A stretch of DNA of 57,110 bases from Actinomycetota bacterium (GTDB lineage: Bacteria > Actinomycetota > Geothermincolia > Geothermincolales > RBG-13-55-18): contig JABLXL010000020.1 of assembly GCA_013178005.1 (NCBI GenBank), forward strand, positions 1 through 57,110. Direction: 5' to 3'. The position numbers were made by a program, and so were the translations under genes. This document shows positions 40,419 through 42,540 of this stretch, piece after piece. The notes under the pieces were generated by a model. The model saw only the letters and a program-made list of their open reading frames with translations, searched no databases and had not been told where the DNA came from. Position 1 is the first letter of the stretch. Each line of letters opens with the position of its first letter.

Positions 40419-40853
40419 TCATATATGCCCTTCATCGACCCGTTCATCGCCTCGATCCCCCTCTCGCGCGCTCAGTCTCCTCCCCAACTCGGCCACGAAA
40501 GACCGGGCATCCTCCAGGCAGGCGGCGGAGGTGACCGGATCCGCCTCCACTTCCCCGGAGGAAACGCGCCGGTACAGGTCGGCGACAATGGGGAGTGACC
40601 GCTGGTTCTCCTTGCTCAACCCCAGGCGCAGCATGGCCTGCTCCAGAAAAGCCCCCACCACGTCTCGCCAGGAGGAAAGGCCTTCCACGGAGCCCAGGGC
40701 CGCGCGCGCGGCGTAGAGCATGGCGAGGAACGAGCTCGCCACGACCTCTCCTCCCATGCCCGCGAGCATGAACTCCCCCGCCATCACCAAGGCCATGTCG
40801 GCCTGCTCCAACCAGTCAACCGCCGGGTCGTCGAACTCGAAAACGCCGGTCAC
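40419..40853 (-). CDS. HEPN-like small helical protein
   Basis: About 144 residues, helical. ADMALVMAGEFMLAGMGGEVVASSFLAMLYAARAAL and the C-terminal ADPVTSAACLEDARSFVAELGRRL follow the layout of UPF0332/HEPN domains. The RNase motif R-x4-6-H of active HEPN toxins is not seen. No nucleotidyltransferase (MNT) antitoxin is adjacent, so a toxin role is not supported. It may be a binding or scaffolding HEPN. The GTG start follows GGGGGAGG; a TTG 33 bases upstream is possible. Confidence 0.55.
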   Translation of the reverse strand: MTGVFEFDDPAVDWLEQADMALVMAGEFMLAGMGGEVVASSFLAMLYAARAALGSVEGLSSWRDVVGAFLEQAMLRLGLSKENQRSLPIVADLYRRVSSGEVEADPVTSAACLEDARSFVAELGRRLSAREGDRGDERVDEGHI

Positions 40854-41058
40854 CAAGCCTCCCCCGCGACCGTTCCGGTCCCTCAAGCCCGCCCGATCCC
40901 GCGATGCGGGCTTCTCGCTCCGCCCCGGCGCCCTCGCGCTCCCAGCGGAGCCGCTGCCAACCGCTACCCTCTAACTTATAATGTTGGGGGGTGGGCGCGG
41001 TCAAACGCCGCCGCGATCCCGACGTCACGATCGCGGGTCGCGCCCGGGAAGGAGAGAG

Positions 41059-41922
41059 ATGGAGTTTTTCAAGTACCACAGCCTAGGCAACGACTACATC
41101 CTCCTCGACGCCATGCGCTCCCCCCTGCGGCTGTCGCCGGCGGAGATACAGATGCTCTGCCACCGGCATTTCGGCATCGGTGGAGACGGAATCCTGGTCA
41201 TGGAGCCATCGGAGAGGGCGTTTTGCCGCATGGTCAACTTCAACCCCGACGCGAGCCAGGCGGAGACGAGCGGGAACGGGCTGCGCTGCCTGGCCAAGCA
41301 CCTCTACGAGACCGGCCTCTATCCCCATAGGGAGATGGAAGTGGACACGCCCTCGGGGGTCAAGAAACTCAGGGTTATGGTGGCGGGAGGAAAGGTGCGC
41401 GCGGTGGAGGTGAACATGGGGCGACCCGATTTCCGCCGCTCCTCCTTGCCCATGCGAGGCGAGGAGGACGAGGCCCTGGAGGTGGAGATCGAAGCGTTGG
41501 GAGGGAGGTTTACCGCCACATGCCTGTCCATCGGCACCCCCCACTGCGTCATCTTCCTCGAGGACCTCGAGGGATTCCCGGTGGGCGAGATCGGCCCCGC
41601 TATCGAGAGGAACCCCGCCTTTCCCCTGCGGGTCAACGTGGAGTTCGTCCAGGTGACCGACGTATCCGAGTTGAGACAGCGTTCCTGGGAGAGGGGCGCG
41701 GGGGAGACCCTGGCCAGCGCCACCGGGGCCGCGGCCGCCGTCGCCGCGGCCGAGCGCACGGGCAGGTGCAAGCGCAAAGTCCACGTCCGGCTGCCGGGGG
41801 GACTCATGGAGGTGGAGATAACCCCCCAGGGCGAGGTGCTCACGCGCGGGCCCGCACGCAGGGTCTTCCGGGGCGAGTTGGACGAGGACTGGCGAGAGCG
41901 CAGCCGCGTCGTGCTCGCTTGA
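41059..41922 (+). CDS. Diaminopimelate epimerase homologue lacking both catalytic cysteines
   Basis: 287 residues with the DapF fold along its whole length: FKYHSLGNDYILLDA, FGIGGDGIL, NPDASQAETSGNGLR, SIGTPHCVIF and ERGAGETLASATGA. In true DapF two cysteines act as acid and base, in CGNG and ACGTG/ACGSG. Here both are serine (Ser71 codon AGC, Ser220 codon AGC). The substrate-binding Asn and Glu-Arg-Gly residues remain. It is therefore unlikely to epimerise diaminopimelate in the usual way. It may be an isomerase or dehydratase of another amino acid, or an inactive relative. The ATG follows AAGGAGAG. Confidence 0.85.
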   Translation: MEFFKYHSLGNDYILLDAMRSPLRLSPAEIQMLCHRHFGIGGDGILVMEPSERAFCRMVNFNPDASQAETSGNGLRCLAKHLYETGLYPHREMEVDTPSGVKKLRVMVAGGKVRAVEVNMGRPDFRRSSLPMRGEEDEALEVEIEALGGRFTATCLSIGTPHCVIFLEDLEGFPVGEIGPAIERNPAFPLRVNVEFVQVTDVSELRQRSWERGAGETLASATGAAAAVAAAERTGRCKRKVHVRLPGGLMEVEITPQGEVLTRGPARRVFRGELDEDWRERSRVVLA

Positions 41923-41991: not shown

Positions 41992-42540
41992 CTAGCCCAG
42001 TGCCTGGGAGCAGGGGATGCAGAGGCGACGCCCGCCCTTTTCCACCAGACGCGTCTCCATGGTCGGCTCCCCGCATTCCTCGCAGGGCAGAGAGACGCGG
42101 ATCTCCGCTTCTGCCGGCGGCTCGTAATCCACCTCCGCTATGGAGAAAAGCTCCTCCACGGGCGCGGTGAGCAAACGCTCCATCGCCATCTCCCTCCTCC
42201 GGGAGGGGTCCACCACCTCCGAGGAAGAGGGCAGGGCGTCCGCCTTGAGGCTGACCCGTATAGCCTTGCCGGGCCGTCGCCTCGATGCGAAGGTGAAAAC
42301 CTGCTTGCCGTGGTCCCTGTAGACGAGGTTGCCTTTCCCGAAGGTGCAGCCGGCCAGGAACTGCACCGCGTCCACGCTACAGGAGTCGTTCTCCACCTCG
42401 CAGACCAGCTCCTCGTCGTAGGCGCGGGAAACGCCGATCCTGTCCAGGGCTTCCCGGGTGGCGCGATACCCGATGGTCAGCCCGGGGCAAAGATGCCCGT
42501 GAAATTCCGCCGCCGCGCTCAGATCCTCCGGTATATCCAT
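41992..42540 (-). CDS. FmdE-family protein with C-terminal zinc ribbon
   Basis: 182 residues. FHGHLCPGLTIGYR (His14, His16, Cys18) and VENDSCSVDAVQFLAGCTFGKGNL are hallmarks of FmdE, named for formylmethanofuran dehydrogenase subunit E. The C-terminus carries CEECGEP and CIPCSQ, a TraR/DksA-like zinc ribbon. Stand-alone FmdE proteins occur in many non-methanogens with molybdenum or tungsten enzymes. No such enzyme is in the window. It lies 29 bp after the VOC gene in the same direction, so the two are probably cotranscribed. Confidence 0.88.
   Translation of the reverse strand: MDIPEDLSAAAEFHGHLCPGLTIGYRATREALDRIGVSRAYDEELVCEVENDSCSVDAVQFLAGCTFGKGNLVYRDHGKQVFTFASRRRPGKAIRVSLKADALPSSSEVVDPSRRREMAMERLLTAPVEELFSIAEVDYEPPAEAEIRVSLPCEECGEPTMETRLVEKGGRRLCIPCSQALG

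Follow-up and report, generated by a model that had tools for sequence, protein, structure and literature searches.

A selected DapF paralogue with serines at both catalytic cysteine positions in an order of Actinomycetota

The window (the whole stretch of DNA that was analysed, 57,110 nucleotides) carries an open reading frame at positions 41059 to 41922 (+) whose predicted product is confirmed by alignment to be a real DapF-fold protein with serines at both catalytic cysteine positions. Judged from comparisons with its relatives, this Ser/Ser paralogue is a real, selected variant of the known DapF family, and its job probably differs from the textbook DapF reaction. DapF is the textbook cofactor-free epimerase of diaminopimelate (DAP), which works with two cysteines and is a drug target. 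Among the functions considered for the Ser/Ser protein, the most likely, which we propose tentatively, is that of a thiol-less pseudo-epimerase that binds an amino acid.

A DapF fold with two serines, and a canonical copy elsewhere

The reading frame runs uninterrupted from an ATG start to its stop codon (287 amino acids) and is preceded by the ribosome-binding site AAGGAG (41049 to 41054, +). In a full-length alignment with solved DapFs, the segments ETSGNG and ERGAGETLASATGA align with the catalytic cysteines. Ser71 (codon AGC, 41269 to 41271, +) thereby corresponds to Cys75 of Anabaena DapF and Cys73 of H. influenzae DapF, and Ser220 (codon AGC, 41716 to 41718, +) to Cys217 of the H. influenzae enzyme. 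The protein scores 253 bits with the NCBIfam model for DapF (TIGR00652), well above its cut-off of 114.65 bits, and has Ser71 and Ser220 where DapF has its two catalytic cysteines. An automatic "diaminopimelate epimerase" label is consequently unsafe unless these two residues are inspected, and the name is unwarranted for the Ser/Ser protein from sequence alone.

An AlphaFold2 model built from 30 related sequences reached a pLDDT of 93.8. Its nearest solved structure is a ligand-bound cyanobacterial DapF (9mro; TM 0.90, rmsd 1.8 Å). Helices of the predicted model begin at residues 72 and 221, so that Ser71 and Ser220 would lie at helix N-termini, as the cysteines do. Compared with DapF (TIGR00652; 9mro, 4ijz, 1bwz), the protein shares the fold, the length, both domains, the distal contacts and the GNG and ERG motifs. 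It differs by serine for both cysteines, Ala-Ala/Thr for Gly-Thr, Thr, Ser or Asn at the Asn164 equivalent, a C-terminal tail of its own and a location outside the dapF operon.

The initial annotation had proposed a search for a second, cysteine-containing dapF and took the absence of such a gene, combined with evidence that the Ser/Ser enzyme makes meso-diaminopimelate, as an argument against its own reading. One was found on a different contig of the source genome (G000:C23:20505-21362), a canonical Cys/Cys copy in the operon AMMECR1-miaA-dapF-dapL-like-hflX; the labels miaA, miaB, dapL and hflX around this gene were assigned by reading the sequences and are presumed identities. The source genome also contains lysA, and no DAP dehydrogenase scored above the cut-off in the order, which argues against such an enzyme making DapF expendable. 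A true DapF is therefore required, and one exists; the Ser/Ser protein thus need not be the DAP epimerase of the cell.

In another genome of the analysis, a third, divergent Cys/Cys DapF homologue lies at a contig end (L030, G012:C249) and possibly represents contamination.

Conservation and genomic setting of the Ser/Ser gene

Including the source genome, 12 genomes of the order carry orthologues of the Ser/Ser gene (11 from family f1 and one from family f2), at 58-87% identity. These carriers are related to Ca. Solincola, and 11 of the 12 good-quality genomes in the order have the paralogue. Serine occupies both sites in 12/12 orthologues, always with the codons AGC or AGT, which are one base away from the cysteine codons TGC and TGT. 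The claim of serines at both catalytic positions was thus borne out by the orthologues as well as by the alignment to solved DapFs, and with all 12 being Ser/Ser, neither chance nor a sequencing slip explains the change. Of 123 sampled relatives, 107 are Cys/Cys; the remainder consists of the Ser/Ser clade, one Ser/Cys sequence and two fragments. Profile searches of the class sample and of 396 Actinomycetota revealed no further Ser/Ser orthologues.

Clustering of the Ser/Ser homologues, another step suggested at the outset, placed them in a single clade (SH-aLRT 100). The f2 copy branches first within it, as vertical descent predicts. A sister relationship between this clade and the canonical DapF of the order received a weak support of 43. 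The paralogue may have been retained after a duplication or after an early acquisition, with a duplication within the order being weakly supported.

Between Ser/Ser orthologues, dN/dS ranged from 0.09 to 0.33, with dS near saturation in distant pairs. In the genome pairs compared, the Ser/Ser paralogue evolves more slowly than canonical DapF (dN of 0.080 vs. 0.207 for G000-G014 and 0.174 vs. 0.330 for G000-G006). The invariant serines, together with dN values below those of the canonical copy, agree with the earlier suggestion of selection over random decay, and the comparisons indicate that the Ser/Ser protein is a distinct, selected and non-decaying paralogue.

A decaying duplicate or an assembly artefact is accordingly very improbable. 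Such an origin could account for the genome G004, where the gene is missing from the syntenic site and the 155-amino-acid gene and the FmdE gene that flank it elsewhere adjoin each other, a genuine absence. It is however rejected by conservation: the gene is intact in 12 genomes, under strong purifying selection and in conserved synteny, and one orthologue stands in the named record of Candidatus Solincola quzhuomuensis (JACVJF010000087.1). The gene was also not found in G017 which, together with its absence in G004, suggests that it is dispensable in some relatives. In G016 a different gene follows DUF72, with no Ser/Ser gene there, and in G005 the contig stops just past the upstream neighbour, so that the syntenic site lies beyond it.

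The Ser/Ser gene stands singly, with a divergent gene on one side and a convergent gene on the other. The divergent gene (40419 to 40886, -) encodes a 155-amino-acid protein without a Pfam match that is kept beside the Ser/Ser gene; the convergent one (41992 to 42540, -) encodes an FmdE domain joined to a zinc finger of the dksA/traR type. The arrangement of DUF72, the 155-amino-acid gene and FmdE is largely common to the orthologues, which places them at one syntenic site. The context of the housekeeping DapF (miaA, hflX and dap genes) is absent here, the neighbours being DUF72, FmdE and others. No enzyme is encoded in an operon with the Ser/Ser gene, and no partner at the locus indicates a substrate. 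Judged by eye from its sequence, the 155-amino-acid neighbour appears HEPN-like.

The gene has a promoter-like site of its own (CTGCCA-17-TATAAT, 40954 to 40982, +), and TATAAT is also present at -60 to -94 upstream of five orthologues. Searches of the upstream sequence in the window and in seven orthologous regions gave no Rfam match to a riboswitch or other known RNA. About 22 bases after TATAAT, the leader contains a conserved GTCAAACG, seen in the window (40977 to 41010) and in G014, G013, G006 and G007.

Ser/Cys DapFs in other Actinomycetota

We searched 396 Actinomycetota genomes with a DNA pattern for serine at the first catalytic site; only AGY codons were covered, so the resulting count is a lower bound. 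In at least 22 genomes outside the order (L179-L200), DapF reads EMSGNGIRC or close variants and has cysteine at the second site. These genomes are 96-100% complete, and their domain matches comprise the two domains of that single DapF only. The gene adjoins hflX in 22/22 and miaA in 20/22, the other two having no miaA within the 3-kb locus, and no DAP dehydrogenase scored above the cut-off in the 22 genomes. A further Ser/Cys DapF, with the serine codon TCA and an intact operon, was found in G008, from the family of the source genome (L212:7968-8789).

With a Ser/Cys protein as the sole housekeeping DapF and no DAP dehydrogenase over the cut-off, a first-site serine probably still permits epimerisation, and the Ser/Cys DapFs are probably functional. 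A change of the first cysteine to serine, taken alone, is thus no sign of new chemistry. If this holds, the Cys/Cys rule for DapF would not be universal. The literature searched yielded no description of a natural serine-bearing DapF. Together with the Ser/Ser paralogue, the Ser/Cys sole copies offer ready variants for asking whether serine can carry out proton transfers that engineered mutants barely perform.

The Ser/Cys housekeeping DapFs share the first-site serine with the Ser/Ser protein and differ from it by the second-site cysteine, by being the sole copy and by their miaA-dapF-hflX operon. In the best tree they are separate from the Ser/Ser clade, while a tree joining the two was not rejected (p-AU 0.33). 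Serine at site 71 may thus have arisen independently of the Ser/Cys DapFs or share an origin with theirs.

The altered cleft and its possible functions

Residues that contact the ligand in the complex of Anabaena DapF (PMC12039745) were mapped onto the Ser/Ser clade. Invariance was found at 10 of the 12 DAP-contact positions, compared to 119 among all 287 columns (hypergeometric P = 0.003), an enrichment which argues that the cleft is still in use. Asn11, Asn62, Gly72, Asn73, Asn193, Glu211 and Arg212 are identical to canonical DapF. The fixed changes (12/12) are cysteine to serine at 71 and 220 and glycine to alanine at 221, and position 160 varies (Thr in seven, Asn in three, Ser in two). 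At the second catalytic residue, the Cys-Gly-Thr loop has become Ser-Ala-Ala/Thr. In the window, Ala221-Thr222 (41719 to 41724, +) replaces the Gly-Thr that holds the reacting carboxylate (PMC12039745). The initial annotation had described the TGA motif as intact. This holds for Thr222-Gly223-Ala224 of the present protein and not for the clade, in which position 222 is Ala in eight orthologues and Thr in four, next to the fixed change at 221. The cleft thus appears largely preserved at its recognition end and remodelled at its reacting end.

One possible reading, somewhat less likely than the binding role, is that one or both serines act as general acid/base on another amino acid, in a dehydratase, a beta-eliminating lyase or a racemase. 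The serines would sit at the N-termini of two active-site helices, they are invariant and the pocket is conserved. Both are, however, among the 41% of columns that are invariant clade-wide; a catalytic role would also produce such invariance, which makes it weak evidence either way. The altered Gly-Thr and Asn160 positions would suit an altered substrate, and the sole Ser/Cys DapFs of the 22 Actinomycetota genomes suggest that serine can work at the first site; yet all of them retain cysteine at the second.

Precedents exist in the proline-racemase superfamily, which has a related two-domain fold. The exchange of cysteine in this superfamily, cited in the initial annotation, is real and a stronger precedent than had been claimed: trans-3-hydroxyproline dehydratase (t3HypD, B9K4G4) is active with Ser90/Thr256 and without any catalytic cysteine, as is 4HypE (B9JQV3) with Ser93/Cys (PMC4113996). 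The Ser/Ser protein shares about 15% identity with these hydroxyproline enzymes in structural alignment and scores below the cut-off of the Pfam model Pro_racemase (PF05544, 16.6 vs. 27 bits). The asparagine at +3 that positions the serine in the proline-racemase enzymes (PMC4113996) is replaced by Gly74 in Ser71-Gly-Asn-Gly74, and their Ser-type motif is therefore absent. A serine hydroxyl is moreover a far weaker acid than a cysteine thiol, and no adjoining pathway gene points to a substrate. Of the proposed selection for new chemistry, the selection stands; the new chemistry does not follow from it, since the operon context suggests no substrate and a DapF without catalytic activity can still serve as a protein partner. 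A combined reading appears rather unlikely, in which this order-wide, thiol-free paralogue would catalyse a new reaction on an amino acid with its two serines as acid and base, and part of the Actinomycetota would carry out the essential epimerisation of DAP with Ser/Cys.

The DapF fold has readily been reassigned to other amino acids, as in O-ureidoserine racemase (7vdy), the histidine racemases CntK and HisR, and PddB. O-ureidoserine racemase uses a catalytic cysteine pair. The same applies to CntK, HisR (PMC11602996) and PddB (PMC8225329), unlike the Ser/Ser protein. In PddB, a relative of DapF, a single cysteine-to-serine exchange leaves <0.1% activity, and the same paper quotes a comparable remnant for the DapF of M. 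tuberculosis (PMC8225329); in HisR, an engineered exchange of this kind nearly abolishes turnover (PMC11602996).

The trace activity of such mutants (PMC8225329) would also allow a DAP epimerase that is slow or serves as a backup, such as one that tolerates oxidants better through the absence of thiols. The retained distal DAP contacts and the seeming tolerance of serine at the first site in nature fit this idea. We nevertheless regard it as improbable: every other natural variant found here retains the second cysteine, the carboxylate cradle is changed, and a backup that is about 1000-fold slower hardly fits a slower evolution than that of the main copy.

We therefore return to the thiol-less amino-acid-binding pseudo-epimerase; placing it above the serine-based enzyme, a close rival, is a matter of judgement rather than measurement. 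For this protein we infer the loss of epimerase activity, the nature of the ligand and the binding role. The lineage-specific paralogue would have given up DAP epimerisation, leaving that role to the Cys/Cys gene of contig C23. Its two-domain fold would recognise the L-amino-acid end of diaminopimelate through Asn62, Asn193, Glu211 and Arg212, while its reacting end lacks the two thiols and some of the carboxylate cradle. DAP or a DAP-like amino acid could then be bound in the closed, thiol-free cleft with its alpha proton unexchanged; lysine, which has no second carboxylate, is one candidate ligand. The protein may act through binding, as a sensor, a buffer or a regulatory partner, possibly via pairing with another protein or via its C-terminal tail. 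An engineered rather than natural example of a dead DapF with a protein-binding role is E. coli DapF C73A/C217A, which still binds and activates RppH (PMC4227774). The tail of the Ser/Ser protein (residues 275 to 287, DEDWRERSR..LA, 41881 to 41919, +) is conserved in the Ser/Ser clade and mostly absent from canonical DapF.
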